Shown: one piece after another, positions 3,275 through 46,157 of the stretch
Layout: every line of letters begins with the position of its first letter
Position numbering within the stretch: position 1 is the first letter of the stretch
NCBI RefSeq assembly: GCF_000813965.1
Contig: NZ_JWLI01000018.1
Span: 1 to 47,377 of the forward strand
DNA: 47,377 bases
Reading direction: 5' to 3'
From: Leisingera sp. ANG-M7
GTDB lineage: Bacteria > Pseudomonadota > Alphaproteobacteria > Rhodobacterales > Rhodobacteraceae
Translations under genes and position numbers: made by a program
Notes under the pieces: generated by a model
What the model was told of the DNA's origin: nothing
The model's database searches: none
Seen by the model: only the letters and a program-made list of their open reading frames with translations

Positions 3275-3275
3275 G

Positions 3276-6770: not shown

Positions 6771-6809
6771 CCCTGGCCACGGCTGCAAGCAGAGCAGAAG
6801 GAAAGAAAA

Positions 6810-23905: not shown

Positions 23906-26017
23906 CTAGTTGATCATCGTGAGGCCGCCCTTCAGGGTCAGCATGGCCTCGCCTTTGACGGTGGTCATCGGCGCTTTTGCCTCAACCATCCCGGTGCCTT
24001 CAATCTTGATCATCGGCCCCTTGATGGTGACGCCCGAGTTGTCGATCTTGACCGAGGACGCGCCTACGGTCAGCTTGATCTCCTGGCCCGCGCTCATCGC
24101 GATCTTGCCTGCCGTCACATCCACGGTCAGGTTGCCCAGCGACACGGTTTCCGAATGGTTTCCCTTGGCAATGGTTTCGGTCAGGTTGCCGGTATCCACG
24201 TCCAGGGTCATGTTGCCCTTTTCGATGGTCTCGGACTTATCACCCATCTTGACGGTCTCGGTGCGGTCGCCCTTGTTCACCGTCTCGGTGACATGCTGCT
24301 CAACCGTCATGACATAGCTTTTCTCATCCGCCGAGGTCACCTCCGGCGATGGCGCATCCAGGCCAACCGTCACCGTCGAGCGGTCTTTGACCAGCATCTG
24401 GTGATCCTTCTCGGCCTGCACCCGCATCAGTTCGCTGTCTTTCTTGTCGTCGAACATCAGCTCGTTATAGCCGCCCCCGCCCTTCGAGGAATTTGTCTTG
24501 ATCCCCAGCTGTGTCTGATCGTCGGGGTAGGTATAGGGCGGCATGGTTTCGGCATTATAAAGCATGCCGGTGCAGATCGGCCGGTCCGGGTTGCCGTCCT
24601 CGAACTGGATCACAACTTCCTGCCCCATCCGCGGGATCGCCACCATGCCCCAGTTCTTGCCCGACCAGGGCGTCACCACCCGCACAAAGCAGGACGAAGT
24701 CTCGTTCTTCTTGCCCTCGCGGTCCCAGTGGAACTGGATCTTGATGCGGCCATGCTCGTCGGTCCAAATCTCCTCACCGCTCTTGCCGACCACAGTGGCG
24801 GTCTGCAGCCCCTGCACTTCCGGCCAGGGCGTCACCAGCGGCGCCCGGAACTGGTCCGACTTCAAAATCGCCGAGAACGTCGACGCGTAAACGTCGTGCT
24901 CCATCTCCTCCGGCACATCCATGTTTTTAGGCTTCAGATCCCGCCGCATGGCGCCCTTGGTGGCAACCTGTTTGGTCTTCTGGCTTTCGCGCTCGCCGTA
25001 ATCCCAAGCCACCTTGATGTGGTGCTCGGCATTGATGACCAGGTATTCCTTGTTATTCTCGGAGACCGGGTGCTTCTTCATTTTGAAGGTGTTGCCAGTG
25101 ACCAGCGTCGCAACACTTGAGGCCCCGCGCCAAGTGATGTGCTTGATCGCTTCCGCTTCCATCTGCACACGGGCAAGCTTGGTCCCCAGGCCGGAGTTCT
25201 TCCGGTAGTGGCCCTGGTAATCGTAGACCTCGTAGTCCTTGTAGGAATGCTTGCCCTTCTGAATGGATGACGTCGCCTTCAGATCCGCCGATGGCGTCAG
25301 AAAATCAAAGTCATTCAGCGTGACCTTGCCGCGTGTGATGCGCTCATCCTTGGTCCATTCCGAGATATGCTCCTCGCGCCGCCGGTCGCTGTCGTCGCGT
25401 GCGTGGAACTCGACATCGGAACCGCCATTGATCAAGGGATGGGCGCCGACACCATCGCACAGTACCAGCTTTTCGACAGCGGTATCGCCAGCTACGCTGT
25501 CGAAGTAAAAGTAGATCCCTTCTTCCTCCATCAGCCGGCACAGGAACGCATAATCGCTCTCGCGGTACTGCAGGCAATATTCCCGCTTTTCATAAGACTC
25601 GCTCAGCTTGTCAGAAAAATCGCTGAAACCGTATTCCCCGAACAGCTGCTTGATGATCTCCACCGTGGTCTTGTCCTGGAACACCCGCAAATCGGCGGTC
25701 CGTGTCAGCATCCAGAACCACGGGCGCACCTCGGCCACATACATCTCATAGCCGTTGCGGAATCCCAGGTACTCGACAGAGACGCACATGCCGTTGAACT
25801 GATGCTCCGTCTGCTGGCGCATCACATGCACGTTCATCTGCTTGCCGACCAGATCCTCCAGCTTGGGCTGCTTCTTGGTGGCGGCAAATTCGATCGTGGT
25901 CTCGGTGAGTTTGCTCAACCCCTCGCGCACAATGGCCCGGCTCATCATCAGGCCGTCGGTGGAATATGTCCCCGACATCCAGGCGAGGTCGTTCTCATGG
26001 CCCTTGCTTACAACCAT
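23906..26017 (-). CDS. vgrG: T6SS spike protein VgrG (TssI)
   Basis: VgrG trimers form the puncturing spike on the Hcp tube. The 703-residue protein has the gp27-like head (about 1-370, including REYCLQYRESDYAFLCRLME) and a gp5 OB-fold with WTDEHGRIKIQFHWDREGK. The spike stalk follows, made of repeated short beta-helix units (VTETVNKGDRTETVKMGDKS and related, about 560-640), and a final strand-rich region ends at GGLTMIN. No catalytic effector extension is fused to the end. AAGGAGGAG precedes the ATG. Its gene lies 64 bases after the TssB-TssC fusion gene, which is an unusual upstream partner. Confidence 0.96.
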   Translation of the reverse strand: MVVSKGHENDLAWMSGTYSTDGLMMSRAIVREGLSKLTETTIEFAATKKQPKLEDLVGKQMNVHVMRQQTEHQFNGMCVSVEYLGFRNGYEMYVAEVRPWFWMLTRTADLRVFQDKTTVEIIKQLFGEYGFSDFSDKLSESYEKREYCLQYRESDYAFLCRLMEEEGIYFYFDSVAGDTAVEKLVLCDGVGAHPLINGGSDVEFHARDDSDRRREEHISEWTKDERITRGKVTLNDFDFLTPSADLKATSSIQKGKHSYKDYEVYDYQGHYRKNSGLGTKLARVQMEAEAIKHITWRGASSVATLVTGNTFKMKKHPVSENNKEYLVINAEHHIKVAWDYGERESQKTKQVATKGAMRRDLKPKNMDVPEEMEHDVYASTFSAILKSDQFRAPLVTPWPEVQGLQTATVVGKSGEEIWTDEHGRIKIQFHWDREGKKNETSSCFVRVVTPWSGKNWGMVAIPRMGQEVVIQFEDGNPDRPICTGMLYNAETMPPYTYPDDQTQLGIKTNSSKGGGGYNELMFDDKKDSELMRVQAEKDHQMLVKDRSTVTVGLDAPSPEVTSADEKSYVMTVEQHVTETVNKGDRTETVKMGDKSETIEKGNMTLDVDTGNLTETIAKGNHSETVSLGNLTVDVTAGKIAMSAGQEIKLTVGASSVKIDNSGVTIKGPMIKIEGTGMVEAKAPMTTVKGEAMLTLKGGLTMIN

Positions 26018-26081: not shown

Positions 26082-29000
26082 TCACAAATCATCCAAAAGC
26101 GCGGCGAGGTCCGCATCCATTTCGTCATCATCCCCATCGTCGCCGTCATCGTCATCCCCAAACGATGACAGCAAGTCATCCAGATCCCCGAGGCCATCGT
26201 CATCCCCGTCATCGCCTCCGAAATCAAGATCATCCAGGCCGAGATCGTCCTCATCGTCTCCGCCCAAATCCAAATCAAGATCCAGCTCTTCGTCTTCATC
26301 GCCACCCCCGGCAGGCGGCTTGGGCTTCGGCAGCCCGCGCGGGTCCGGCGGCGAGGGCTCAGGCGCCGGCAATCCGGTCCAGGGCCCCAGGATCTCAGCA
26401 CCCTTCAGGGAGTTGAAAGAGGTCAGCCGCACCTCATCCCGCCCCTTGACCGCACTCACCGCCATAAACCCGCGTTCCTGTGCCAGCGCGATCTTGTCCA
26501 GATCAATATTGCGCTCAGTGCAGGGCAACGCCACCTGGTCGCCGAATTTGTCGTTCACATAATGATAGGGCATCCCGCCCAGAGACATAATTTTCCCCAG
26601 CTGCAACGATGGCCCGTTTTCCTTGAAGGAGCGCCCGAGCAAAATCGCAACCAGCACCACCGGATTGGCCCAGAGCAAGCCCTTCAGGCCTTCCGTTTCG
26701 GTAAACTCCTCGAAATCAAACTCATAGCAGGGATCGGTTTTTTCACCATAGGGCCGGCGCAGCAGGAACCGCGGGCTGGCCAGCCCCAGATGGCCGGCCT
26801 CCGCCATGCCCTGAAGCGTGTTCCAAGAATCAGCCACCAGCTTGGGCCGCTCTGCTTTGGGCGTTTTCAGAAACTCCGGTGAAATCGACGCAAAGAACGG
26901 CGCATCCACATGTGCCGCGACTCTTGCGATCCGGCCCAGCAGCTCTGCATGCGGCGGGGTTTCCTCGAACTGATACATCCCGATCAGCGCCGAATAGCCG
27001 CCGCGCCCGTTTTCCTCGTCCAGCGGCTCCTCTGTCAGCAGCCGCACGAGGCCGGTCTTGGACAGGTCGTCTTCGGCCGCCAGATCCGCCGCCAGCTCCT
27101 CTGCCGAGATGTCATAGAGCATCACATCCAGCGTATCGTCTGCCTCAATGGAGCGCGCCATCAGGTCCAACGAGCGCCACTGCGCCTCGACCGACTGGAA
27201 CTCCGGGTGATGCAGCACCAGCCGCATTGCATCCGACAGCGCTTCATCCACCGCCTTCTGCATCTCGGCCACCTGCGGGTCCGGCAGTGCCCGGATATGC
27301 GGGCCAACAACGCGCGCCAGCAGTTCCTCCACCGGCGAGGCCTCGCGCAGCGTGTTGCCGGTATCGCCAATCAGTTGCTGAAAGGCGCTCAGCCGCTTGT
27401 CCGCCGGCACCGAGTTCCCGGCAGATGTCCGCTTGGGCGCCCGCGCCTTGGTGCCGAATTTCTCAGCCCAGGCTTTCAGCGTCTTGGCTGCATGATCCGC
27501 CGTCGCGCCGCTTTGCAATTGCTTGCGCAGGCCCACCAGCTCGGAAAACAGTTCCACGTTTTCATACAACTCATCCGGGTGCAGCCCGTCCAGGTCCTCC
27601 AGCTTGACCGCAATGCCCGCACCGTCCTTGCCAATCGGCAGCACCAGTTCGGTGGCAAAACCTTCGATCACATCTTCGACCGTATCCGGGTCCAGAAGGA
27701 TTGCCTTGCGCGCCGCCAGCGCATCACCGGTCTCAACCTGCCCCTTGGCCGCCCGCCCGGAAAAGTCCCCCAGAACAGCCATCCGGAACCGCTTGCGCTC
27801 CAGCCTCGAGGCCGCGGGCCGTTCGGCACTCATGGTGCCATAGGCAAACTCCGGCTCGTCCGAGGCCTCTGCCGCCGCCGCTGCCGGTTCATCGCCGCCT
27901 GCGTCCAGATCCCCCAGAAGCGCATCCAGATCGTCGCCGCCCGCCTCGGCGGAGTCCTCGTCATCACCGCCAAGCCCGCCCAGCAGATCATCCAGGTCCA
28001 TATCCCCGCCGTCACCGCCAATCAGGCTGTCGAGATCCGCATCCGCGTCCCCCAGCCCGCCCAGCAGCGCGTCGAGATCATCTTCGGCGCTGTCCGCGTC
28101 CTCTGCCTCTTCGGCCTCCGCTTCCTCGCCAAGCCCCGCCAGCAAACCGTCCAGATCGCCGTTCTCTTCCTCATCGCTGCCAAGATCGCCCAGCAGGTCA
28201 TCCAGATCGGCATTCCCGCCAGCCTCATCCAGGCCGCCAAGCAGCGCGTCCAGATCATCCTCCGCGTTTGCGGAATCCTCTTCGCCAGCAAAAAGTGCAT
28301 CCAGATCAGAACTGTCTGTGTCTTCCGCTTCCGTATCCAGACCGCCCAGAAGATCATCCAACCCGTCTTCGCCGTCAGCAGCCTCAGTTGCGGTCTCTTC
28401 CTCCGCACCGCCCATGAGCGCATCAAGATCGTCCGCGGCATCATCCTCGCCGCCCAGGTCTCCCAACAGGCTGTCCAGATCGCTGTCTCCCGCGGAGTCT
28501 TCCGCCAGCAAGGTCTCCAAACCGGCCCCGCCGCCTTCAGCATCCTCGTCAATGCCGGCGTCCGCGAGGCCCGCCAGCACATCATCAGCGCCATCCTCCG
28601 CGGCCTCTTCCGGTTCATCACTGCCAAGATCCGCAAGCAGATCATCCAGACCGCCGTCGTCTGCTTCAGCGTCTTCAGGAGCCTCCAGCGTATCCAGCGC
28701 CGCGCTCAGATCCTCTTCGCCGGCGTCGTCCTCCGGTTCCTCAAGACCGCTCAGGATGTCATCCAGATCAGTGCCGGCACCGGTGTCTTCCTCAGGCGCG
28801 TCCTCTGCCAGCCCGGCCAGAATATCCCCGGCATCATCCGCCTCTCCGGCTTCTTCGGGCGCATCAAGGCTGTCCAGAACGGCGCCTAGGTCGCCGTCTT
28901 CCGCGTCATCCTCTTCAGGCGCAGCGTCAAGCAGTCCGTCCAGAATATCGTCGGAGCCGTCATCTTCCGCATCTTCAATCTCAACGGCGGCGAGGCTTTC

Positions 29001-31055
29001 CAGCGCATCTTCCGCATCGCTGGCGGTTTCGTCCTCCCCGGGCGCCTCCTGCAGCAGCCCGTCAAGCACGTCGTCCAGTCCGGCGTCCTCCTCATCATCG
29101 GACACAACCGCGTCCGCCAGGCTCTCCAGGGCAGCAGCCGCTTCTTCGCCGCTGTCTTCCTCTGCCAGATCCGTATCTGCAAGCCCGGTCAGAACATCGG
29201 AAGTATCGTCATCTTCGTCTTCGGCAACATCCACCGCAGCCAGGCTTTCCAAAGCCGCACCAGACTCATCCTCCTCCTCAGCCGCGTCCGGTTCCAGATC
29301 TGCCAGCCCCTCCAGAATGTCCGAATGGTCCTCATCTTCAGTCTCAGCCACCTCTGCGGCTGCAAGGCTGTCCAACGCGGCGCCCGCAGCATCATCGGCC
29401 TCATCCTCTACTTCGATCGCGGCCAGGTCATCCAAAACCGAGGCATGGTCCTCTTCCTCGTCAGCGTCCGGCACATCCGCAGCCGCAAGGCTCTCCAAGG
29501 CCGCGCCGGCAGTGTCGTCTTCCGCGGCATCGCCGGTTTCCAAAGCGGCCAGGCTTTCGAGCGCATCCTCCGCCGCGGTGTCTTCATCCTCTTCCACCGC
29601 GGCATCTGCCAGCGCATCCAGAACGCCGGAATGATCTTCTTCGCCATCCTCCGCAATTTCGACAGAGGCGAGGCTCTCCAGCGCATCATCAGCAGCCGTA
29701 TCGGCTTCCTCCGGCACTTCCAGATCCGCCAGCGCATCCAGCACACCAGCGTGATCCTCTTCTTCCGCGTCAGTCACTTCAACGGACGCCAGGCTTTCCA
29801 GCGCCGCTCCCGCGGTATCTTCTTCGGCCGCCTCCTCCACGTCCTGCGCCGCCAGCCCGGCCAGCACATCGCCGGAGGTGTCCTCCTCCTCTTCGGGGAG
29901 GTCGGCCTGCGCCAGCCCTTCGAGGACAGAACCCGTCTGATCATCTTCTTCAGCATCCGGAATTTCCGCCGCAGCCAGCGAGGCCAGCGCTTCTCCGGCC
30001 TCATCGCCCTGGTCTTCTTCTTCGGGTGCGGCAGCGCTCAGTCCCGCCAGCACATCAGCGGACCCATCATCCGTTTCAGCCTGCTCAGGCGCAGCAGCCC
30101 GCAAGTCATCCAGAACGCTGCCGGAGCCATCCTCTGCTTCAGCTTCTTGCGGGGCCTGTGCGGAAAGCCCGGCCAGCACCTCACCGGACGTATCTTCCTC
30201 TTCTTCCGGAAGGTCAGCCTGGGCCAGCCCCTCCAGCACCGCCGCAGAGGTGTCCTCCTCAGCGGTCTCGGGAACCTCAGCCGCCACCAGCGACGCCAGG
30301 GCATCTGCGGCTTCATCCGGCTGGTCTGTGTCCTCAGGCGCCGCCGCGCTCAAACCGGCCAGCACGTCCGCTGACGTGTCTTCTGTCTCCGCAGCTTCCG
30401 GCGCGGCGTCGCGCAGCGCATCCAGAACCCCGCCGGAGGTATCCTCAGGCCCGGCATCTTCCGGCGCCTTCACGGCGAGGCCGGCCAGCACGTCACCCGT
30501 GGTGTCCGCCTCTTCCTCCGGCAGTTCCAGATTGCGCAGGCTGTCCAGCGCCGCGGCACTGTCCGCATCCGCTGCCGGTGCCGATACTGCCGCCAGCAGC
30601 GACGGGTCGTTCAGGATCGTCTCGATCAGCGCCTCGGCGCCGGTCTTGCCGTCCATATACGCCATCAGGTTCTGCAGCTGGGTACGCGCCTCCAAAAGCG
30701 GGCGCAGCGCATCCACTTTGGCGGCAATCGCGCCGGGCGCGAAATCCGCCATGCTCTCAAACGTCAGATCCACCGCCAGGTTGCCCTCGCCGGTCAGCGT
30801 GTTGGGCACGGTGAAGGCGGCGCGCGGCGCCAGGCCCTTCATCCGCTCGTCAAAATTGTCGACGTCAATTTCCAGGAACTTGCGGTCCGCAACCGCGGGC
30901 TGCTCAACCGTGGACTTGCCAATCAGATCGCTCATCACCCCCATGACAAAGGGCAGCTGCACCTTCTTCTCGGCGCCATAAAGCTCCACGTCATATTCAA
31001 TCTGCACCCTGGGCGCCCGGTTCCGGGCGATGAACTTCTGCGAACTGTCAGCCAT
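26082..31055 (-). CDS. Giant TssB-(acidic repeats)-TssB'-TssC' sheath-protein fusion
   Basis: This 1657-residue protein is not a standard T6SS component. Residues 1-155 are nearly identical to the canonical TssB at 42337-42852. Residues about 184-1052 are a very acidic Leu-containing repeat region. Residues about 1085-1185 form a second, divergent TssB-like domain (FRMAVLGDFSGR, then RKAILLDPDTVEDVI, then an LELFSELVGLRKQL-like helix). Residues about 1240-1555 resemble the TssC core (HHPEFQSVEAQWRSLDLM, GLASPRFLLRRPYGEKTDP). The C-terminal roughly 120 residues of normal TssC are absent, replaced by an Asp-rich tail ending ALLDDL. The ATG overlaps the sodium-channel stop by 8 bases. It may be a minor sheath, cap or baseplate-adaptor protein; its function is unknown. 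Confidence 0.9.
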   Translation of the reverse strand: MADSSQKFIARNRAPRVQIEYDVELYGAEKKVQLPFVMGVMSDLIGKSTVEQPAVADRKFLEIDVDNFDERMKGLAPRAAFTVPNTLTGEGNLAVDLTFESMADFAPGAIAAKVDALRPLLEARTQLQNLMAYMDGKTGAEALIETILNDPSLLAAVSAPAADADSAAALDSLRNLELPEEEADTTGDVLAGLAVKAPEDAGPEDTSGGVLDALRDAAPEAAETEDTSADVLAGLSAAAPEDTDQPDEAADALASLVAAEVPETAEEDTSAAVLEGLAQADLPEEEEDTSGEVLAGLSAQAPQEAEAEDGSGSVLDDLRAAAPEQAETDDGSADVLAGLSAAAPEEEDQGDEAGEALASLAAAEIPDAEEDDQTGSVLEGLAQADLPEEEEDTSGDVLAGLAAQDVEEAAEEDTAGAALESLASVEVTDAEEEDHAGVLDALADLEVPEEADTAADDALESLASVEIAEDGEEDHSGVLDALADAAVEEDEDTAAEDALESLAALETGDAAEDDTAGAALESLAAADVPDADEEEDHASVLDDLAAIEVEDEADDAAGAALDSLAAAEVAETEDEDHSDILEGLADLEPDAAEEEDESGAALESLAAVDVAEDEDDDTSDVLTGLADTDLAEEDSGEEAAAALESLADAVVSDDEEDAGLDDVLDGLLQEAPGEDETASDAEDALESLAAVEIEDAEDDGSDDILDGLLDAAPEEDDAEDGDLGAVLDSLDAPEEAGEADDAGDILAGLAEDAPEEDTGAGTDLDDILSGLEEPEDDAGEEDLSAALDTLEAPEDAEADDGGLDDLLADLGSDEPEEAAEDGADDVLAGLADAGIDEDAEGGGAGLETLLAEDSAGDSDLDSLLGDLGGEDDAADDLDALMGGAEEETATEAADGEDGLDDLLGGLDTEAEDTDSSDLDALFAGEEDSANAEDDLDALLGGLDEAGGNADLDDLLGDLGSDEEENGDLDGLLAGLGEEAEAEEAEDADSAEDDLDALLGGLGDADADLDSLIGGDGGDMDLDDLLGGLGGDDEDSAEAGGDDLDALLGDLDAGGDEPAAAAAEASDEPEFAYGTMSAERPAASRLERKRFRMAVLGDFSGRAAKGQVETGDALAARKAILLDPDTVEDVIEGFATELVLPIGKDGAGIAVKLEDLDGLHPDELYENVELFSELVGLRKQLQSGATADHAAKTLKAWAEKFGTKARAPKRTSAGNSVPADKRLSAFQQLIGDTGNTLREASPVEELLARVVGPHIRALPDPQVAEMQKAVDEALSDAMRLVLHHPEFQSVEAQWRSLDLMARSIEADDTLDVMLYDISAEELAADLAAEDDLSKTGLVRLLTEEPLDEENGRGGYSALIGMYQFEETPPHAELLGRIARVAAHVDAPFFASISPEFLKTPKAERPKLVADSWNTLQGMAEAGHLGLASPRFLLRRPYGEKTDPCYEFDFEEFTETEGLKGLLWANPVVLVAILLGRSFKENGPSLQLGKIMSLGGMPYHYVNDKFGDQVALPCTERNIDLDKIALAQERGFMAVSAVKGRDEVRLTSFNSLKGAEILGPWTGLPAPEPSPPDPRGLPKPKPPAGGGDEDEELDLDLDLGGDDEDDLGLDDLDFGGDDGDDDGLGDLDDLLSSFGDDDDGDDGDDDEMDADLAALLDDL
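27900..30506 (-). repeat. In-gene acidic tandem repeats with 312-bp higher-order period
   Basis: This encodes residues 184-1052 of the fusion. The first part is built from about 21-residue units of the form D-[TS]-x-x-x-V-L-x-x-L-x-x-x-x-P-E-acidic. Five units make a 104-residue block that recurs starting at residues 184, 288 and 392 (bases 30506, 30194, 29882), with the five unit types in the same order in the first two blocks. Later units degenerate to shorter DLDALLGGL-type repeats separated by Asp/Glu/Gly/Ala. The pattern looks like repeated unequal duplication under selection for acidic, short amphipathic helices. Confidence 0.9.
30591..31055 (-). repeat. Duplicated tssB segment, copy in fusion gene
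   Basis: The first 155 codons of the fusion match tssB at 42388-42852 at high nucleotide identity, including an uninterrupted 42-base identity at 30780-30821 (against 42577-42618). This indicates recent duplication or gene conversion between two loci 11.8 kb apart in direct orientation. Confidence 0.9.
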
Positions 31056-31902
31056 TGCCCTGCCCCTTCAGCTCGGCAATCTCCGCCCGCAGCGCCTTGA
31101 TCTCGTCATGCAGCTCCATCACATGCGCATCCACCACGTCGGTCTCCGACTTCACCAGATCACGCAGCTTCTCGAACTCCGCCTCGGCATCGGCCTCCAC
31201 CGCCGACTGCATGGTGTTGACCAGCAGGCCGATGAACAGGTTCAGCACCGAAAACGCGGTGATCACGATGAACGGCACAAAGAACGACCATGCAAACGGG
31301 AATTCCTCCATCACCGGGCGCACGATCCCCATCGACCAGCTTTCCAGCGTCATGATCTGGAACAGCGAATAGAGCGACCGGCCGAGCGTGCCGAACCATT
31401 CGTCAAAGGCGGCGCCATACATCATCGTCGCCATCACGCCAAAGACGTAGAACACGATGGAGATCATCACAATCACCGCGCCCATGCCGGGCAAGGCATC
31501 CAGAAGCGCCTGCACAACAGCCCGCATCTGCGGAATGACCGACAGCAGGCGCAGTGCCCGCACCACCCGCAGGCCGCGAAGCGCCGACAGGCCCTGGCTG
31601 TCCGGGAACAGCCCGAAGGAGACGACAACCAGGTCGAAGATGTTCCAGGCAGAGGAGAAGAACCGGAAGCCATAGGCAAACAGCTTCAGCGCCAGCTCCA
31701 GCACAAAGATCGCCAGAACAGCGGTGTCGATCACATCCAGCAGCCCGCCCGCATGCGCCCGCACCGCCGCCGAGGTGCCAAGGCCCAGCGTGATCGCATT
31801 GAAGATGATGATGCCCAGAATGGCATTGGTCACCGACCTGCGTTCAACAAATTCGCGGGCCTTGTCCCGAAGCGTCTCTGCGGATTGCGCGCTGCTGTCC
31901 AA
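31048..31902 (-). CDS. Bacterial voltage-gated sodium channel (NavBac type)
   Basis: This 284-residue six-helix channel monomer, expected to tetramerise in the inner membrane, has S1 (about 24-44), S2 (54-78) and S3 (83-99). The S4 voltage sensor RGLRVVRALRLLSVIPQMR has Arg109, 112, 115 and 118. S5 spans about 138-162, then a pore helix and the selectivity filter TLESWSM (185-191), S6 about 205-232 and a C-terminal coiled coil (about 236-280). The filter is the sodium-selective NavAb/NaChBac signature, and the length fits that family. Its stop overlaps the fusion-gene start by 8 bases, embedding it in the T6SS operon. Nav channels are not known T6SS parts; whether the link is functional is unknown. 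Confidence 0.93.
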   Translation of the reverse strand: MDSSAQSAETLRDKAREFVERRSVTNAILGIIIFNAITLGLGTSAAVRAHAGGLLDVIDTAVLAIFVLELALKLFAYGFRFFSSAWNIFDLVVVSFGLFPDSQGLSALRGLRVVRALRLLSVIPQMRAVVQALLDALPGMGAVIVMISIVFYVFGVMATMMYGAAFDEWFGTLGRSLYSLFQIMTLESWSMGIVRPVMEEFPFAWSFFVPFIVITAFSVLNLFIGLLVNTMQSAVEADAEAEFEKLRDLVKSETDVVDAHVMELHDEIKALRAEIAELKGQGNG

Positions 31903-31966: not shown

Positions 31967-33214
31967 TCAGGCCGCGTCAAACACGGTTCCGTCCAGCACC
32001 TTGCTGGTGATCTTGTCATAGGCATAGCCGCCAACCGCGCCGCCCACACCCAGGGCCAGATCCTTGGCGCCGGTGGCGATCGAGTTGCCGTCGATCGGCG
32101 ACAGCGCCAGGGCTGCGAACTTCAGCCCTTCGCGGAACACCTTCAACGCCTTCGGATCCTTGATCGTCAGTGCCTTCACCCGCTTCATCAGGTCCTTGAT
32201 GTTGTTGGCCCAGCCGCGGGCGTCCGCATACATGATCTGGATCTTGTCGATGGCTTTCTGAACTTCAGCGTAGTTGCCCGCCAGGGCCGTATCCAGCGCC
32301 TTGCTGATCATCACCAGCTGAGTCTTTTTGTCCTTCACCGGGTGCTTCTTCAGCTTCTTGCCAACCTCCGCCAGAAATTCCTTCTTGAGCTTTTCCTGCT
32401 CCTTCAGGATCTTGTTCAGCGTCTTCGACAGGTCATGCATCTTGACGACCATCTGGGCATATTTCGCCTTCAGCGTATCGGCCGCATCCTCCACCGTCTT
32501 GACCGACGGCTGTGAGATGCCCAGGAACTCCTGGAACACCGCTGCCGAAACCTCATTCGCGGCATTCAGCGCCGGGTTGGAGGCTGCCTTTTCCACCACC
32601 ACCAGGTTTTTCACCAGAATGGTCTTGGACTGGTTGATGTCGATCGCCAGCTTGCCGATGTCCTTGGCCAGCGACACGCCGGACTTGATCAGCCCGATGA
32701 TACCAAAGGCCGCGCCGGCGCCACCGGAAAACGGCGAGGTCGCCATCGCCGCGATGCTCACCGCCAGCCCGGCCAGAGTGCCGGCAATCGACACGCCTAC
32801 CTTGATCTTGAACTTGGACCATTCCTTTTTCTTCTTCTGAAGGTTCGTCCAGGCCTTCTGCGCGGCCAGTTCCGCCGCCTTCTCGCCGACCTTGATGTCG
32901 TTCTTGATGGCGTCGTTCAGCCCCTTCAGCTGCTTCTCCATCGCCTTCTTGTCGGCGCCTTTGTTGGCCATCTCGACAAAGGCCTTGTCGAACACCTTGC
33001 ACTTCTTCTCGATGGTATCGCGGGTCTGTTCAAAGACCTCGCTGGCACCGGCATGGAATTCCTGCTGCAGAAGCGGGTCTTTCTCGACCCCCTTCTCCAT
33101 TTTCTTGTCCAGTTCGACCACAACTTTGAAGGACAATTGGGGCGGCTTGACCATCTCCAGCCCCGAAGCGCCGACTTCGACGTTCTTCATGTCCATGACA
33201 ACATGTTTAACCAT
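31967..33214 (-). CDS. Lys-rich helical protein with hydrophobic hairpin, candidate T6SS effector
   Basis: I do not recognise a family with certainty. The 415-residue protein has no signal peptide. After a short strand-rich start (about 1-35) it is predicted to be long, charged helices (about 36-135 and 235-350), interrupted by a hydrophobic segment at 137-183 (VGVSIAGTLAGLAVSIAAMA, then a Gly-rich turn, then FGIIGLIKSGVSLA). A second Ala/Gly-rich patch lies at about 364-398. This layout of long helices with a buried membrane hairpin resembles alpha-pore-forming toxins such as the ClyA/HBL/Xax class, by shape only. GGAAGGAG precedes the ATG. It lies just after clpV, where the Agrobacterium locus carries its tai-tae immunity-effector pair. 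A structural T6SS accessory role is the main alternative. Confidence 0.75.
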   Translation of the reverse strand: MVKHVVMDMKNVEVGASGLEMVKPPQLSFKVVVELDKKMEKGVEKDPLLQQEFHAGASEVFEQTRDTIEKKCKVFDKAFVEMANKGADKKAMEKQLKGLNDAIKNDIKVGEKAAELAAQKAWTNLQKKKKEWSKFKIKVGVSIAGTLAGLAVSIAAMATSPFSGGAGAAFGIIGLIKSGVSLAKDIGKLAIDINQSKTILVKNLVVVEKAASNPALNAANEVSAAVFQEFLGISQPSVKTVEDAADTLKAKYAQMVVKMHDLSKTLNKILKEQEKLKKEFLAEVGKKLKKHPVKDKKTQLVMISKALDTALAGNYAEVQKAIDKIQIMYADARGWANNIKDLMKRVKALTIKDPKALKVFREGLKFAALALSPIDGNSIATGAKDLALGVGGAVGGYAYDKITSKVLDGTVFDAA

Positions 33215-33250: not shown

Positions 33251-35974
33251 TCATTCGAATGCGTAGGTGAACTCTCCGTCCTTGACATCGATGGCGACTT
33301 TCTCGACTTCCGCGCCCTCCATCAAGCGGCGCAGGAACTCGTTGGAAATCTCCGGCAGCATAGTGTTGGTGACAATCGCGTCGATCATCCGCCCGCCGCT
33401 GTCCAGCTCCTGGCAACGGTTGACGATCTCTTCCACCACAGCATCCGAATACTCGAACGGCACCCCATGCGCCTCCTGTACCCGTTTCTGGATGCGGCCC
33501 AGCTGCAGCTTGGTGATCTCGCCGATCATCTCCGGGCTGAGCGGGTAATAGGGAATTGCCACCAGACGCCCCAGCAGCGCCGGCGGGAACACTTTCAAGA
33601 GCGGATCGCGGATCGCCTTTGCCATGCCCTCCGGGTCCGGCATCAGTTCCGGGTCGGAACACAGGTCCATGATCGTCTCGGTGCCGACGTTGGAGGTCAG
33701 CAGGATCAGCGTGTTCTTGAAGTCGATGATGCGGCCTTCGCCGTCTTCCATCACGCCCTTGTCGAACACCTGGAAAAAGATCTCATGCACATCCGGATGC
33801 GCCTTCTCGACCTCATCCAGCAGCACCACGGAATAAGGCTTGCGCCGCACCGCTTCGGTCAGCACCCCGCCCTCGCCATAGCCGACATAGCCCGGAGGCG
33901 CGCCTTTCAGCGAGCTGACGGTATGGGCTTCCTGATACTCCGACATGTTGATGGTGATGACGTTCTGCTCGCCGCCATACAGCACCTCTGCCAGCGCCAG
34001 CGCGGTTTCGGTCTTACCGACGCCGGAGGTGCCGGCCAGCATGAACACCCCGATCGGCTTGTTCGGATTGTCCAGCCCGGCGCGGCTGGTCTGGATGCGC
34101 TTGGCGATCATCTTCATCGCGTGATCCTGGCCGATCACACGCTGCGACAGCCGTTCTTCCAGGTTCAGGATGGTCTCGATCTCATCCTTGACCATGCGGC
34201 CCACCGGGATGCCGGTCCAGTCCCCCACGACCGAGGCCACCGCCTGATGATCGACAATCGGAAGGATCAGCGCAGAGTCGCCCTGCAGCGCTTCCAGCTC
34301 CGCGTTCTTGTCCTTCAGCTCCTGCATCAGCTTGGCGCGTTCTTCATCCGACAGCGGGCTACCGGCAGCGCCCTCCGCGCCGTCTTCCCCGGCATCCGCC
34401 GGGGCGTCCACGGGCGCGGCGCCCTCCCGCAGCTTGGCGCGCAGTTCCAGAATGCCCTCAACCACCGCCTTTTCGTTGTCCCAGCGCTCGGTCAGCCCGG
34501 CCAGCCGTTCCTCCTCTGCAGCCTTGGCGGCTTCCACCGCCTCGCGCCGGTCCGCAACCTCATAGCCTGCGGTCTCGTCGCGGCCGATGATCTCAAGCTC
34601 GGTGGTCAGCGCCTCGATCCTGCGCTGGCTGTCGTCGACCTCGGCGGGAACCGCGTGCTGGCTTACCGCCACCCGCGCACAGGCCGTATCCAGCAGGCTG
34701 ACGGACTTGTCTGGCAGCTGCCGCGCCGGGATATAGCGCGCCGACAGGCTGACGGCCGCCTCGATCCCCTCGTCCAGCACCTGAACCCGGTGGTGGTTTT
34801 CCAGCATCGAGGCAATGCCGCGCATCATCAGGATCGCCTTCGGGATGCCCGGCTCCTCGACCTTGACCACCTGGAAGCGGCGGGTCAGCGCCGGGTCTTT
34901 CTCGATGTATTTCTTGTACTCGGCCCAGGTGGTGGCGCCGATGGTCCTGAGCGTCCCGCGCGCCAGCGCCGGTTTCAAGAGGTTCGCCGCATCGCCGGTG
35001 CCGGCCGCACCGCCCGCACCGACCAGCGTGTGGGTTTCATCCACGAACATCACAATCGGCGTCGGGCTTGCCTGAACCTCGTCGATCACCTGGCGCAGGC
35101 GGTTTTCAAACTCGCCCTTCATGCTGGCACCTGCCTGCAGCAGGCCCACGTCCAGCACCAAGAGCCGCACATCCTTCAGCGCGGGCGGCACGTCGCCGCG
35201 GGCGATCCGCAGGGCAAAGCCCTCGACCACAGCCGTTTTACCCACGCCCGCCTCACCGGTCAGGATCGGGTTGTTCTGCCGCCGCCGCATCAGGATATCG
35301 ACGATCTGGCGGATCTCCTCGTCCCGGCCCACGATCGGGTCGATCTCGCCATTTCGGGCCTGTTCGGTCAGGTCGGTGCAGAATTGCTCCAGCGCCTCGC
35401 CCTTGCCCATCGCGCCCGGCGCCATCGAGCCGGAGGCCTCGCCCGGTTCAGCGCCGCCGCCGGTCACGTTGGAGCCGTCCTGCGCCCCCAGCCGTTCCTC
35501 GGGCGAGCCATCGGTGGCCTTGTGGAAATTGTCGGCCAGATCATCCGCGCCGATCTTGGCCAGCTCCGGCGACATGTTCGACAGGATGTTGCGCAGCGCC
35601 GGTGTCTTCAGCATCCCCAAGAGCAGATGGCCGCTGCGGACCTGACCCGCGGAATAGAGCAGCGAGCCCCAGACCCAGCCGCGTTCCATCGCATCCATCA
35701 GATGATCTGACAGGTCGGAAATCGTCGAGGCCCCGCGCGGCAGCATATCCAGCGCCCGGGTCAGCTCGCTGGCAATCTTGCCGGTGTCCAGGTCGTAATG
35801 CTGGATGATCCGGTGCATGTCGCTGTCCTGCTGCGCCAAGAGCTGATGCATCCAATGCACCAGTTCCACATAAGGGTTCCCGCGCATCTTGCAGAACACG
35901 GTTGCGCTCTCGACGGCCTGGTATCCCAGCTTATTCAACTTGCCAAACAGCGCCACGCGGCTGATCTCGGTCAT
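33251..35974 (-). CDS. clpV: T6SS sheath-recycling ATPase ClpV (TssH)
   Basis: ClpV is a hexameric AAA+ unfoldase that disassembles contracted TssB-TssC sheath. The 907-residue protein has a Clp N-domain (about 1-160) and a first AAA domain with Walker [16 protein letters not shown] and the sensor stretch [20 protein letters not shown] shorter middle domain and a second AAA domain with [16 protein letters not shown] follow. The start has a GGGAGGG site and lies one base after tssG. Everything expected for a working enzyme is present. Whether it also acts on the TssB-TssC fusion encoded downstream is open. Confidence 0.97.
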
Positions 35975-38872: not shown

Positions 38873-39369
38873 CACATGGCCCTTTCCATTTCCACCTCGC
38901 CGGTGGTCAGATCGACCTTGCTGCGCAGGTAAAGCTCCAGCGGCATCGGCTGTGCCCACATGTCGGCGCGGATTTCCAGCCCCACGGTCATCTCGGTCGC
39001 GTCGGTGCCATCCTGCAACCGCACATCGACAGAGCCTTCGATGATCCTCGGCTCATAGGTGGCAATCGCCTGCTTGATCGAGCGCCGGATCGCCTCTGCC
39101 TTCTCGGTGGTCGAGGCCTCCCCCGCCACTTCAATCAGACCGTAGTTCAGCACCGAGGCCGACACCGCCGGGTATTTCTCCGCATCGAAATGGCTTTCGA
39201 CATTCTGCGTGTTCAACAGCCACGACAGATCGCGCTGGATGATTTCCCGCAGCCGCACCAGATCAATCACCCGGCTCTCGCGGGTTTCCTTCTGATCGGC
39301 AGGCGCATTGTCGGTCAGCCGGTCCAGCAGCGAGGGCTGCAGGCGCTCGGCCAGTGTCTTGTCAGCCAT
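38872..39369 (-). CDS. tssE: T6SS baseplate protein TssE (gp25-like)
   Basis: TssE is a gp25-like protein that starts sheath polymerisation on the baseplate. The 165-residue product, starting MADKTLAERLQPSLLDRL, contains the diagnostic LREIIQRDLSWLLNTQN, VLNYGLIEVAG and IRRSIKQAIATYEPRI segments. The chosen ATG (39369) lies within the end of tagJ, overlapping it by 8 bases. The in-frame ATG at 39483 would run deep into tagJ and is rejected. Confidence 0.96.
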   Translation of the reverse strand: MADKTLAERLQPSLLDRLTDNAPADQKETRESRVIDLVRLREIIQRDLSWLLNTQNVESHFDAEKYPAVSASVLNYGLIEVAGEASTTEKAEAIRRSIKQAIATYEPRIIEGSVDVRLQDGTDATEMTVGLEIRADMWAQPMPLELYLRSKVDLTTGEVEMERAM

Positions 39370-40165
39370 TCTCTTCGCCGTGCCCATCCATCCGGAGTGT
39401 GCGCACGTCCATGATGGCAATGTCCTCATCGCCGATCGCCAGCAGCCGCTGGCCCAGACCGGTATAGGTTTCCGCGCCGGCATCCTGCCACACGGTGGCG
39501 CGCGCCAGCATCGACAGCCCGTCTGCCTTCTCGCTGCCGGGATAACGGGTCGGGATCATCGCCGCTACTTCACCGCCGCCCGCCAGGGTCAGCGTGCCCG
39601 CGGTCCAAACCGCATCGCGCAGGTCGCTCGGCTCCTCTGCTTCAAAGGAGACGATCTTGGAAAACGGCAGCCAGTAGTATTTACCGTTGATCACCGCTTC
39701 CAGCACCGGTCCCAGCCGCATGTCAGCATCCGCGATCCACTCGAACCGCTTGCCGTTCACCTCACCGGGGCTGGCAGGTGCCGCATCAAACGCCTTGGCG
39801 CGCAGCTCTGCTGCTTCCTTGGGATTGCCGGTTGCCAGCAGTTTCTGCGCCTCGATCAGATGCGCCAGCCATTCCTCCGGCTCGCCCAGGATCAGCGGCG
39901 ACTTCTCACCCGCAAACACCTTCTCGCGGTAGACCTCGCAGATGATCGCCTCGCGGTAGGCCTGCGCCATCACGGTGGCGCCTTCGTCCAATCCCGCCGC
40001 CGCCTTCAGCTGCGCAATCGCCCGGTTCCAGTCGCCCAGAACGCACAGCAGCTGAAACAGAAACACCCGCAGCTTGGGATTGCTCGCATCCGCGCGGATC
40101 TTGGCTTGCAGCGCCTCCAGCGCCGCCTTGGGATCACCAGCTTTCAAATGCTCTTCAGGTGTCAT
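39362..40165 (-). CDS. tagJ: T6SS accessory protein TagJ (ImpE family)
   Basis: TagJ binds the N-terminus of TssB in some systems and is thought to modulate ClpV recognition. The 267-residue protein has an N-terminal tetratricopeptide-like helical part (HLKAGDPKAALEALQAKIR, LLCVLGDWNRAIAQLKAAA) and an ImpE C-terminal domain (about 140-265) with GKRFEWIADADMRLGPVLEA and YYWLPFSKIVSFEAEEPSDL. Presence of tagJ next to tssE is characteristic of one T6SS subgroup. It is the first gene after the hcp terminator. If TagJ here also binds TssB, it could bind the near-identical TssB domain of the fusion; this is inference. Confidence 0.94.
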   Translation of the reverse strand: MTPEEHLKAGDPKAALEALQAKIRADASNPKLRVFLFQLLCVLGDWNRAIAQLKAAAGLDEGATVMAQAYREAIICEVYREKVFAGEKSPLILGEPEEWLAHLIEAQKLLATGNPKEAAELRAKAFDAAPASPGEVNGKRFEWIADADMRLGPVLEAVINGKYYWLPFSKIVSFEAEEPSDLRDAVWTAGTLTLAGGGEVAAMIPTRYPGSEKADGLSMLARATVWQDAGAETYTGLGQRLLAIGDEDIAIMDVRTLRMDGHGEENG

Positions 40166-40256: not shown

Positions 40257-40757
40257 TTACTCGACCTTGCCGGTCTGCACGTTCCACTTGAAGGTGCCTT
40301 CAGTGGTGAGCTTGCCGGTTTTCTGGTTGGTCGACTTGTACTCGTGCTCGATCGCAGCATAGGCCAGCGACCAGGTCTCTTCCGGAATGCCGTCTTCGCT
40401 GGCGGAAATCGAGTAGCTGTCGACAACCACGTCTTTCAGCTTCCAGACCGAATAGACCAGCAGGCCCTGGCTGGCGCTGTCACCCGAACGGCACCAGTGC
40501 ATGATGATTTCCGGGCGCACGGTGCCATTGGCAACCGACAGCGCCAGGTCGTTCGAGGCTTTGCCCATCTGCGAGGTCAGCTCGATCTTGCCGAAGTTGG
40601 AGTTCGCGTGCATCCGCTGGGTCGAGCCCAGATCGGTCATTTCCACCGCGCGCTCCACGTTCCAGCTCGCCGACTGGATCACGATCCACTTCTTGTGGTT
40701 TTCCTCGGTTGCATCGCCATCGATGTCCGAGATCTGTACGAACATGTTTGCAGCCAT
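40257..40757 (-). CDS. hcp: T6SS tube protein Hcp (TssD)
   Basis: Hcp hexamers stack into the tube expelled by sheath contraction and can carry small effectors in the lumen. The 166-residue protein shows the Hcp pattern FVQISDIDGDATEENHKKWI, then SASWNVERAV, and LTSQMGKASNDLALSVANG. No fused effector domain is present. A GAAAGGA site precedes the ATG. It is the last gene before a strong terminator, which fits the need for high Hcp expression. Confidence 0.97.
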   Translation of the reverse strand: MAANMFVQISDIDGDATEENHKKWIVIQSASWNVERAVEMTDLGSTQRMHANSNFGKIELTSQMGKASNDLALSVANGTVRPEIIMHWCRSGDSASQGLLVYSVWKLKDVVVDSYSISASEDGIPEETWSLAYAAIEHEYKSTNQKTGKLTTEGTFKWNVQTGKVE

Positions 40758-40824: not shown

Positions 40825-42321
40825 TCAGCCTCCTTTTTCCGAGGGCAGTTTCGATACCAGACGCAGCGAGACAGAAAGCCCCTCCAGCTGGTAATGCGGG
40901 CGCAGGAAGAATTTTGAGGTGTAATACCCCGGGTTGCCCTCGACCTCTTCCACAACCACTTCGGCTGCGGCCAGAGGTTTGCGCGCCTTCTCGTTCTCCG
41001 AAGAGATGTCTGCGTTGAAATCAACATAGTTGTTGATCCAGTCCTGCAGCCAGGACTCCATGTCCTGACGGCTTTTGAACGAGCCGACTTTGTCTCGCAC
41101 CATGCACTTCAGATAGTGCGCGAACCGGCATGTGGCGAACAGATACGGCAGCCGCGCGCCCAGGTTGGCGTTAGCGGTGGCGTCCGGATCGTCGTATTCG
41201 GCCGGCTTGTGCAGCGACTGCGCCCCCATAAAGGTCGCAACGTCGGTGTTCTTGCGGTGAATAAGCGGCATCATGCCGTTCTTCGCCAGCTCCGCCTCGC
41301 GCCGGTCATCAATGGCAATCTCGGTCGGGCATTTCTGATCGACGCCGCCATCGGTGGTCGGGAAGGTGTGGCTGGGCAGGTTCTCCAGCGTGCCGCCGCT
41401 TTCAACGCCGCGGATCCGCGAGCACCAGCCGTACATCTTGAACGAACGGGTGATGTTCACCGCCATGCCATAGGCCGCGTTGACCCAGCCGTATTTGTCG
41501 CTGCCGGCACCGGCGGTGTCTTCCTCGAATGCAAACTCCTCAACCGGGTCGGTCTTGGAGCCATAGGGCAGACGGCCCAGGAAGCGCGGCATCGCGAGAC
41601 CCACGTATTTCGCATCCTCGCTGTCGCGCAGCGACCGCCATGCGGCATATTCAGGGGTCTGGAAGATCTTGGTCAGATCGCGCGGGTTCGACAGTTCCGC
41701 CCAGCTGTCCATCTGGAACAGGGTCGGCTTGGCGCCGGTGATCAGCGGCGCATGCGCGGCTGCTGCAATCTTGGACATCTCGCCCAGCAGCTCGATATCC
41801 GGCGGCGAATGGTCAAAGTGGTAGTCCGCCACCAGAGAGCCGTAGGGCTCGCCGCCCAGCTGGCTGAATTCCTCGGTGTAGATCTTCTTGAAGATCGGCG
41901 ACTGATCCCATGCCGTGCCCTTGAATTTCTTCAGGGTCTTCGACATTTCCTTCTTGGTGATCGGCATCACCCGGATTTTCAGCTGCTCATCGGTCTCGGT
42001 GTTGTTGACCAGATAATGCAGGCCCCGCCAGGCGCTTTCCAGCTGCTGGAATTCCTCGTTGTGCAGGATCAGGTTGACCTGCTCGGTCAGCTTCTCGTCA
42101 ATCGCCGCCACGATGCTCTCGATCGAGCGCAGCGCGTCATCGGAAATCAGCGCAGTGTTTGCCAGCGCCTGTTCGGCCAGGGTTTTGACCGCGCTTTCAA
42201 CCGCAGTCTTGGCCTGATCCGACTTGGGGCGGAATTCTTTCTGCAGCAGGCTCGCGAATTCGGCAGAGCCAAAGGCGGCTTCACCGGCAGCGGCTTCCGC
42301 CTGGAGTTCTTCTTCAGCCAT
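40825..42321 (-). CDS. tssC: T6SS sheath large subunit TssC
   Basis: TssC forms the contractile sheath with TssB. The 498-residue protein has all family landmarks: NEEFQQLESAWRGLHYLV, a YGSLVADYHFDH segment, GLAMPRFLGRLPYGSKTDP, and a complete C-terminus with FATCRFAHYLKCMVRD and the closing LSVSLRLVSKLPSEKG. The C-terminal strands, which in TssB-TssC sheaths interlock neighbouring subunits, are intact here, unlike in the fusion at 26082-31055. A GGAGGA site precedes the ATG. It lies directly after tssB. Confidence 0.97.
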   Translation of the reverse strand: MAEEELQAEAAAGEAAFGSAEFASLLQKEFRPKSDQAKTAVESAVKTLAEQALANTALISDDALRSIESIVAAIDEKLTEQVNLILHNEEFQQLESAWRGLHYLVNNTETDEQLKIRVMPITKKEMSKTLKKFKGTAWDQSPIFKKIYTEEFSQLGGEPYGSLVADYHFDHSPPDIELLGEMSKIAAAAHAPLITGAKPTLFQMDSWAELSNPRDLTKIFQTPEYAAWRSLRDSEDAKYVGLAMPRFLGRLPYGSKTDPVEEFAFEEDTAGAGSDKYGWVNAAYGMAVNITRSFKMYGWCSRIRGVESGGTLENLPSHTFPTTDGGVDQKCPTEIAIDDRREAELAKNGMMPLIHRKNTDVATFMGAQSLHKPAEYDDPDATANANLGARLPYLFATCRFAHYLKCMVRDKVGSFKSRQDMESWLQDWINNYVDFNADISSENEKARKPLAAAEVVVEEVEGNPGYYTSKFFLRPHYQLEGLSVSLRLVSKLPSEKGG

Positions 42322-42336: not shown

Positions 42337-42852
42337 TTATTCTTCGCTGTCGGCTTCGCCGCCGGGCTTCGGCTGCGCGGCCAGGGTTTTCAGCAGGCTC
42401 GGGTCCTGGATGATCTTGGAGATCAGATCCTCGGCGCCGGTCTTGCCGTCCATATAGGTCATCAGGTTCGACAGCTGGGTGCGCGCTTCCAGCAGCTCGC
42501 GCAGCGGCTCCACCTTGGCGGCAATCGCAGCAGGCTTGAAATCGTCCATGCTCTCGAACGTGATGTCGACCGCCATGTTGCCCTCGCCGGTCAGCGTGTT
42601 GGGCACGGTGAAGGCGGCACGCGGTGCCATCGACTTCATCCGGTCATCGAAGTTGTCCACGTCGATTTCCAGGAACTTGCGGTCCGCGACTGCAGGCTGC
42701 TCCACTTCGGATTTGCCCACCAGGTCGCTCATCACGCCCATCACGAAGGGCAGCTGCACCTTCTTCTCGGCGCCGTACAGCTCCACGTCATATTCGATCT
42801 GGACCCTTGGTGCCCGGTTGCGGGCAATGAATTTCTGTGAACTTCCGGCCAT
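42337..42852 (-). CDS. tssB: T6SS sheath small subunit TssB
   Basis: TssB pairs with TssC in the sheath. The 171-residue product opens SSQKFIARNRAPRVQIEYDV and includes LPFVMGVMSDLVGKS and RKFLEIDVDNFDDRM, standard for TssB. It ends after an Ala/Pro/Glu tail. Its first 155 residues are almost the same as those of the fusion protein encoded at 26082-31055, so the two TssB domains probably bind the same partners. An AAGGAGA site precedes the ATG. The tssB stop and tssC start are 15 bases apart. Confidence 0.97.
   Translation of the reverse strand: MAGSSQKFIARNRAPRVQIEYDVELYGAEKKVQLPFVMGVMSDLVGKSEVEQPAVADRKFLEIDVDNFDDRMKSMAPRAAFTVPNTLTGEGNMAVDITFESMDDFKPAAIAAKVEPLRELLEARTQLSNLMTYMDGKTGAEDLISKIIQDPSLLKTLAAQPKPGGEADSEE
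42388..42852 (-). repeat. Duplicated tssB segment, canonical copy
   Basis: This is the counterpart of 30591-31055, in the same orientation, with a 42-base identical run at 42577-42618. Recombination between the two copies would delete tssC, hcp, tagJ, tssE, tssF, tssG, clpV and the two following genes, so they are a potential instability hotspot. Confidence 0.88.
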
Positions 42853-44185: not shown

Positions 44186-45034
44186 ATGATGAGTATTGAT
44201 CGTATTTCTGGCAAGGAAGTCAAAGAGATGGTTCGCGAAGGGGCCAAGAAGCGGATGAGTTTCGCCTTCTGCCTCGACGCCAGCAAGGACCCGCTCCTGA
44301 TGATCCAGCCGGGCAAGAAACCTGAAACGCTGAAGGCCCCGATGAAGAAAGAGGGGGGCGGCCCGCCCATGGCCTGGGGCACCTATGTGGTCCGCTCCGG
44401 CAATATGGAGATGATCTGCGAAAGCGCGCCGCAGCGCATGGTCACTGAACTCAAGAAATTCCTCAAACGCAACCCGGCCAAGGTCAACGTGCTGTTCTAT
44501 GATGACGGCGGCAACCTCCTGGACAGTCTCAAACCTGAGGCCTCCGACAGCCAGGTGACAGAGGATGACGCCTCCGACATCAACGCCTCCGGCATCGACG
44601 CCAAGGCAATCGCACCGCTAAAACGCCGCCTGAAACGGATCCAGCCGCGCATCGGCCTTGCGCCCGGCCCCCTGGAGCTGAAACTGAAACGCGCGCTGGC
44701 CAAATCCGTCAGCCTGATCAACGACGGCCGCCTGCAGGAGGCCGAAACCATGATCGTAGTGATCGAACGTGCCGTCGCCCGCATCGGCGCCGACCGCGAG
44801 GATGAGGCCAAGTCGATGAAACGCGGCCAGCGCGAGATGGACCAGCGCTCGCTCGGTGCCCAGGTCAAACGCGCCCAGTCTCTGCAGGCCAATGTCGCCC
44901 GCGCCCCGGGCAAGGTCCGCGACCGGCTGGGCCGTGCCCTGCATGTGGCCGCCCGCCACCTCAAGCGCCGCGATCTCGACTCGGCCCGCGACGCAATGGA
45001 CAAGATCGAAAAGGCTCTGACCGCCCTGGTCTGA
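44186..45034 (+). CDS. Unrecognised protein divergent from tssA
   Basis: I do not recognise this 282-residue cytoplasmic protein. The N-terminal part (about 1-112) looks like a small alpha/beta domain (KKRMSFAFCLDASKDPLLMI, GTYVVRSGNMEMICESAPQ, KVNVLFYDDGGNLLDSL). After an acidic spacer (about 113-136) the C-terminal half is basic and helical (PLKRRLKRIQPRIG through MDKIEKALTALV), perhaps two helical hairpins with alternating charged heptads. Two adjacent ATG codons stand at the start, with no strong ribosome site. It shares a 189-base divergent promoter region with tssA, which suggests co-regulation with the T6SS, but no function can be given. Confidence 0.75.
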   Translation: MMSIDRISGKEVKEMVREGAKKRMSFAFCLDASKDPLLMIQPGKKPETLKAPMKKEGGGPPMAWGTYVVRSGNMEMICESAPQRMVTELKKFLKRNPAKVNVLFYDDGGNLLDSLKPEASDSQVTEDDASDINASGIDAKAIAPLKRRLKRIQPRIGLAPGPLELKLKRALAKSVSLINDGRLQEAETMIVVIERAVARIGADREDEAKSMKRGQREMDQRSLGAQVKRAQSLQANVARAPGKVRDRLGRALHVAARHLKRRDLDSARDAMDKIEKALTALV

Positions 45035-45045
45035 CCCCGAACACA

Positions 45046-45074
45046 GCCCGGCCCGCAGCGGTTGCGGGCTGGGC
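45046..45074 (+). terminator. Long GC-rich hairpin between the two plus-strand genes
   Basis: GCCCGGCCCGCA (45046-45057) pairs with TGCGGGCTGGGC (45063-45074) with one G-U pair and a 5-base loop, just after the preceding stop at 45034. No U-tract follows. It may partly terminate or protect the upstream message. Confidence 0.45.
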
Positions 45075-45099
45075 ATCCCACCGGACCCCGGAGACAGTG

Positions 45100-45519: not shown

Positions 45520-45522
45520 GCC

Positions 45523-46140: not shown

Positions 46141-46157
46141 CACGGGGGAACGCCGCC

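Follow-up and report, generated by a model that had tools for sequence, protein, structure and literature searches.

The type VI secretion system (T6SS) locus of Leisingera sp. ANG-M7 encodes a fusion protein of 1657 aa that carries, within one chain, the predicted middle layer of a sheath protomer with both of its connectors gone. The gene lies at 26082..31055 on the minus strand of contig NZ_JWLI01000018.1, which was analysed over its whole length of 47,377 nucleotides (the window). It consists of a TssB domain, an acidic motif array, a joined TssB-like and TssC-like module (TssB'C') and an acidic tail, and we identify it from Pfam, NCBIfam and its layout as an orthologue of TssCL. This name was introduced in 2022 for roseobacter symbionts of bobtail squid, and that paper assigns the protein no function (PMC9515649). 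TssCL of ANG-M7 is described there as having 1684 aa, VipA domains at 86.2% and 26.3% to TssB, one VipB domain and normal tssB and tssC genes alongside; the authors counted it in 20 of 28 roseobacter references but saw it in none of the other bacteria that they analysed, and the words acidic, disordered and repeat are absent from their text. The window fusion shows the same layout, with two VipA parts and one VipB part in one chain and the first VipA 86% identical to TssB. The initial annotation of the window, to which no published T6SS protein arranged in this way was known, was therefore wrong on that point. Among open-licence papers, the name TssCL together with type VI secretion led to no second publication, and stand-alone TssB'C' may be described in other journals; no such gene is named in the passages of PMC4337385 consulted.

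We analysed the parts of the fusion by profile searches. Pfam T6SS_VipA matched two stretches, the best at residues 10-158 (E 5.8e-63), and the N-terminal TssB domain (residues 1-158, 30582..31055, minus strand) passed the NCBIfam cut-off for TssB (TIGR03358) with 201 versus 97.25 bits. The second VipA-like part, TssB' (approximately residues 1090-1205, 27441..27788, minus strand), scanned alone, matched only positions 28-122 of the 155 in the profile (E 2.2e-07), that is, it lacks the N-terminal arm of TssB. The TssC' core at residues 1267-1550 (26406..27257, minus strand) matched the VipB N-terminal domain (E 2.9e-41) and missed the curated cut-off for TssC (TIGR03355) with 139.1 versus 271.5 bits. 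For the gp25-like handshake domain (PF18945, VipB_2), Pfam gave no match in the window fusion. The initial annotation was borne out in its layout and borders, in its near-copy of TssB and in its divergent second sheath module, both ends matching VipA or VipB profiles, and also in the ordinary tssB, tssC and hcp genes that it placed in the same locus.

The two connectors of a sheath are understood here as the N-terminal strand arm of TssB and the C-terminal handshake domain of TssC. A search with the TssB'C' profile returned 855 proteins, and of the best 120 we scanned 86 relatives, all of which matched VipA and the VipB N-terminal domain and none VipB_2. Structural models agree with this picture: against the R2 pyocin sheath chain 3j9q_A they aligned to residues 23-290 of 385 in one match and to 24-292 in another, and against TssC chains they matched to about residue 400. 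Profiles and models together show TssB'C' as the predicted middle layer of a sheath protomer in a single chain, without either connector. It differs in this from canonical TssB/VipA and TssC/VipB (P. aeruginosa TssB1C1, 5N8N), being one chain devoid of arm and handshake domain. It shares the sheath fold in one chain with the single-chain sheaths of extracellular contractile injection systems (eCIS), pyocins and phages, whose N-terminal arm and C-terminal part fall outside the range aligned to TssB'C'. A cap, a terminator or a length ruler that works by handshakes, of which the initial annotation had considered cap and length control, is unlikely because both connectors are missing, and we set it aside; in addition, the linker varies in length from 184 to 991 aa among 28 loci and from 363 to 1217 aa among 55.

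The distribution of TssB'C' was analysed with a profile of the module (A1) run against 390 Rhodobacterales genomes. It matched in 111 of them at E 1e-20, and 37 held a full-length module (at least 682.8 bits; next 222.2 bits). Each of these 37 genomes contained at least one further A1 match, and those listed are TssC-sized frames. Among the 32 loci not cut on the left, 28 carried the N-terminal TssB and four did not (L055 with a long linker; L070, L071 and L073 being short). A second, overlapping set of 80 named loci, retained from 131 and called by best match at 60 bits, comprised 55 with TssB, linker and TssB'C', 15 cut by a contig end, eight with TssB'C' only and two with linker and TssB'C'. 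One of the eight (L093) has TssB and linker in a separate frame before the module, its reading frame being split, and one of the two (L130) matches TssB weakly once the threshold is lowered.

Relatives of the core, not of the whole layout, reach beyond Alphaproteobacteria, which sets our result apart from the published account of TssCL and rules out a core restricted to that class. A relative was found in the betaproteobacterium Eleftheria terrae, and at E 1e-55 the module matched in 3 of 398 genomes sampled by phylum and in 2 of 385 sampled by class, its own genome counted in both. Near three distant hits, 4 of 115, 5 of 185 and 4 of 17 genomes exceeded 335 bits, one of the last being partial at a contig end. 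Apart from this partial one, the distant frames measure 477-638 aa, which leaves no room for both TssB and a long linker. G1359, with a weaker match of 214 bits in a 476-aa frame, may hold a further relative. The best 120 of the 855 proteins mentioned above, a search confined to 0.55-1.75 times the query length and thus blind to long fusions, include Microbulbifer, Agaribacterium and one record named Planctomycetes. By these matches, TssB'C' belongs to a wider family that outside Alphaproteobacteria occurs without TssB and linker. Since the module exists there by itself, we read the fusion as not primary, with TssB and linker as the part that would come and go.

Rhizobial T6SS loci likewise contain a second, divergent TssC, ImpD/TssC40, which is needed for Hcp secretion in A. 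tumefaciens (PMC3702570). Unlike TssB'C', the ImpD tested (L005, in Phyllobacterium the second tssC) matches VipB_2 but not VipA. We ruled out that both are the same: two ImpD-like proteins scanned carry VipB and VipB_2 without a TssB part, and both kinds coexist in L174 (G1161:C1:2838000-2857900), where TssC, an ImpD-like TssC and TssB'C' stand in one T6SS locus. Separately, the 652-aa open frame at G1137:C3:184354-185799, in which the match to TssB' and TssC' crosses no stop but scores only 249 bits, is perhaps a true TssB-TssC fusion.

Between TssB' and TssC' lies a junction segment (27366..27392, minus strand in the window) whose equivalence to the ClpV-docking helix of TssC we consider putative. 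The docking motif of TssC is LLDEII, with EFASLL at that place in HsiC1 (PMC4239648, PMC5048182). HsiC1 represents the class of the window T6SS, which has TagJ and a TssC of the EFASLL type. In 92 of the 114 tail-less relatives among the best 120 of 855, the junction holds an LLDEII-type hexapeptide (200 shuffles: mean 0.3, maximum 3). The helix is N-terminal in TssC, whereas the junction motif is internal, and it is of another type in roseobacters: all 37 Rhodobacterales junctions fit [LMV][ST][DEA]F..L[ILV], and the TssC proteins of the same order read EFxxLLxKEF[RK]PK in 32 of 32, comparable to EFASLL of HsiC1. In model md7e3133107af (P0241), ILDTML at position 129 sits on a short helix, 129-136, flanked by stretches with a pLDDT below 50. 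A comparison of junctions with the TssC of their own genomes gave permutation values of p=0.0014 (16 genomes) and p=0.006 (the 11 outside Rhodobacterales), which is only suggestive.

At the other end of the chain, TssB residues 7-30 (30966..31037, minus strand) correspond to the segment that binds TagJ in HsiB1 and forms part of the handshake arm (PMC4239648, PMC5807055). In HsiB1, residues 8-30 bind TagJ, which in turn binds ClpV (PMC4239648). Among fusions this segment is 96% identical, the remaining segments 62-82%; ordinary TssB follows the same pattern with 99% versus 78-95% (L052 was excluded from these means and from the TssB tree). All eight HsiB1 residues that contact TagJ are present in the window fusion; site by site, 23-28 of 28 fusions retain the residue, and 21 retain all eight. 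The N-terminal TssB thus keeps the predicted TagJ-binding arm. In addition, tagJ is found in 28 of 28 loci with a TssB-bearing fusion and is absent from two of the four loci without TssB, and clpV occurs in 32 of 32. Compared with the TssB of its own genome, the TssB of the fusion shows a median identity of 0.80 (range 0.40-0.92, 28 pairs; 0.86 in the window). In the tree, most fusion TssB sequences fall into a single clade (21 of 27 rows, 99/93) and six rows stand near tssB genes, L067 grouping with its own tssB at 100/95. A single change from fusion to gene or back does not suffice to account for the tree, so the TssB domain appears to have been recaptured or gene-converted in some lines.

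On these grounds we tentatively favour that the fusion may be an accessory of ClpV- and TagJ-dependent sheath recycling, with its TssB tying it to the sheath. This reading draws on more of the facts than any other, and beyond the anatomy we infer its every step. The N-terminal TssB would pair with real TssC, so that some fusion copies would join the sheath or the subunit pool. C-terminally tagged TssB is used in sheath imaging, and the fusion would be its natural counterpart, with an extended acidic tether that bears a TssB'C' head presumably incapable of polymerising. The head would use the junction segment, and the arm of TssB would use TagJ, to keep the ClpV ATPase near the sheath, and this might tune the timing and speed of contracted-sheath disassembly and subunit reuse. 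In bacteria that have only TssB'C', it could play the same role as a soluble sheath mimic. Sequestration and recruitment of ClpV would both be compatible with the docking-like motif of the relatives and the kept TagJ arm, the sequence fitting recruitment and restraint of ClpV alike. We are doubtful about a broader proposal, namely a so far unrecognised T6SS accessory family of several lineages in which a single-chain, connector-less protomer with a ClpV-docking helix would act as a sheath mimic controlling the disassembly ATPase, TssCL being the roseobacter form, leashed to the real sheath by an array of up to ~1200 residues and a copy of TssB that was captured and, in some lines, renewed. The wider family without connectors and the ClpV-docking-like motif in most tail-less relatives listed turn TssCL into a testable question: is it a sheath mimic that regulates the T6SS recycling motor? 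If the fusion TssB enters sheaths, it would be a selected natural counterpart of tagged TssB that equips a contractile machine with a long array of acidic motifs.

Several observations weigh against sheath recycling. The arm is also the most conserved part of ordinary TssB, so its conservation in fusions need not signal a TagJ role; the correlation with tagJ depends on two related loci, and TssB is lost or decayed in L055, L144 and L052. The LLDEII pattern was defined after the junctions had been seen, occurs in none of the six tailed relatives among the best 120, and its 114 tail-less carriers and non-carriers are akin, 22 of them reading MLDAIL. The helix at 129-136 in the P0241 model is itself of low confidence. 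In the window, the junction reads LSAFQQLIG, which is only similar to the docking motif and not of the LLDEII type, and a profile of the TssC helix chose another best site than the junction in most fusions. In the comparison within genomes, one of 16 (L075) scored above all 50 shuffles and one (G1161) tied, many best matches falling outside the helix. The idea that the linker mimics the ClpV helix of TssC was rejected, since the profile test was unspecific (31 hits versus 14 in shuffled sequence, with 7 of 60 column-permuted profiles equal). Finally, full-length ClpV1 still binds HsiC1 that lacks its first 33 residues (PMC4239648); the docking argument is therefore strongest for the tail-less relatives and weakest for the window.

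Alternatively, the fusion might be a baseplate-side assembly factor, with TssB'C' as a sheath-like adaptor on the VgrG, TssK and TagH side and the tethered TssB fishing for sheath subunits and aiding nucleation. We consider this unlikely. The handshake elements required for sheath seeding are missing, and in structural comparisons other eCIS sheath chains tie with the baseplate ones (Z within 1). The gene order in Rhodobacterales represents one inherited operon and no independent evidence. Furthermore, at seven loci with TssB'C' genes (L159, L161, L175-L177, L180 and L181) no other T6SS gene turned up with our T6SS queries in the stretch retrieved.

The acidic linker (approximately residues 159-1085, 27801..30581, minus strand) contains, by our borders, 907 aa with 327 D+E and 4 K+R. 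Composition and variable length, together with its retention where TssB is gone (L055, L144), would suit a surface modifier, in which TssB places a long acidic bristle into sheath or subunit pool, keeping them soluble or apart, and TssB'C' serves as anchor or plug. However, the linker is more than composition. Short [LIM]xx[LI] motifs are arrayed along it in order, with a period of ~20-21 aa: counted as [LIM]x[x][LI], they gave 1030 hits in 28 linkers versus a shuffle mean of 181 and a maximum of 214, the short linkers L069 and L072 staying within their best shuffle. Its ratio of non-synonymous to synonymous substitutions (dN/dS) is 0.15-0.28 in four of six pairs of loci, and saturated and not computable in two. 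As a surface modifier would also leave TssB'C' without a linker unexplained, we regard it as quite improbable. Under sheath recycling, the array would serve a partner of the tail motif as a multivalent platform. The acidic C-terminal tail (26085..26363, minus strand) carries DLDDLLSSF (26160-26186) and, at the C-terminus, EMDADLAALLDDL (26085-26123). The C-terminal motif is present in 36 of 37 and in 80 of 80 loci of the two overlapping sets, the 37th (L073) having a variant, and a tail of the fusion type was seen in six of the best 120 of 855 relatives. The linker may be an expansion of the tail motif.

The fusion is a real coding sequence, as indicated by a frame open in closed plasmids, low dN/dS and ordered linker motifs. 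In the window, ORF 26082-31055 on the minus strand is a single unbroken frame of 1657 codons with an ATG start, preceded by AAGGGG at 7 nt; at its start it shares 8 nt (ATGGCTGA) with the ion-transporter gene upstream. The frame runs open from a TssB start through the linker in the closed plasmids NC_023136.1 and NZ_CP042263.1, and over six pairs of loci dN/dS is 0.02-0.06 for TssB and for TssB'C'. The initial annotation had named an assembly error as what could overturn it; both artefact and pseudogene are ruled out by the plasmids and dN/dS. Contigs end inside the gene at 5 of 37 and 15 of 80 loci, so that single linker lengths from draft genomes may be wrong. Public gene calls frequently begin within the linker and so lose the TssB domain, as in P0121, a 777-aa call from residue 881. 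In NC_023136.1 and NZ_CP042263.1, annotated starts likewise fall inside the linker although the frame stays open as far as a TssB start.

The same data bear on two further alternatives. With vgrG, DUF6931 and PAAR as neighbours, the fusion could be cargo or an evolved effector, delivered on VgrG or on the tube, which is very improbable since its Pfam matches are sheath families only, its dN/dS is very low and some relatives are located away from vgrG. Least probable of all is a functionless relic of duplicated sheath genes: the diverged TssB of L052 (40% to its tssB), the lost TssB of L055 and the split frame of L093 would fit, but they stand against the dN/dS of 0.02-0.06, the conserved C-terminal motif and a full-length module in 37 of 390 Rhodobacterales genomes.

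The locus reads tssA-B-C-hcp-tagJ-E-F-G-clpV-orf415-ion-fusion-vgrG-DUF6931-PAAR-tagH-K-L-M-tagF-pppA. Family searches named the fusion, tssB, tssC, hcp, ion, vgrG, clpV, tagJ, tssA/E/F/G, tagH, DUF6931 and PAAR, and tssK, tssL, tssM, tagF and pppA were named by position only, after the annotated plasmid of L. methylohalidivorans. Separate tssB (42337..42852, minus strand) and tssC (40825..42321, minus strand) are retained alongside the fusion according to Pfam and NCBIfam, the latter gene with VipB_2 and the EFASLL N-terminal motif; hcp (40257-40757) was identified in the same way and tagJ (ImpE, 39362..40165, minus strand) by family search. The clpV/tssH gene (33251..35974, minus strand) matches AAA_2, ClpB_D2-small and AAA_lid_9, and tssH occupies the same place in NC_023136.1. 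Downstream, vgrG (23906..26017, minus strand) adjoins the fusion; a vgrG frame lies 4-315 bp from it in 37 of 37 loci.

Upstream, the ion-transporter gene (Pfam Ion_trans, 31048..31902, minus strand) is kept in 27 of 32 loci. Between it and clpV, positions 31967-33214 encode a 415-aa protein without a Pfam match, variable or not found in relatives, which could be an effector or adaptor. At 44186-46975, another protein without a Pfam match adjoins tssA, followed by a frame at the place of the MotA/TolQ/ExbB gene of NC_023136.1, and two small frames there resemble ExbD by our own reading. Read from translations alone, frames at 2900-7196, beside the T6SS locus, resemble a chemotaxis cluster (CheY/CheA/CheW/CheR).
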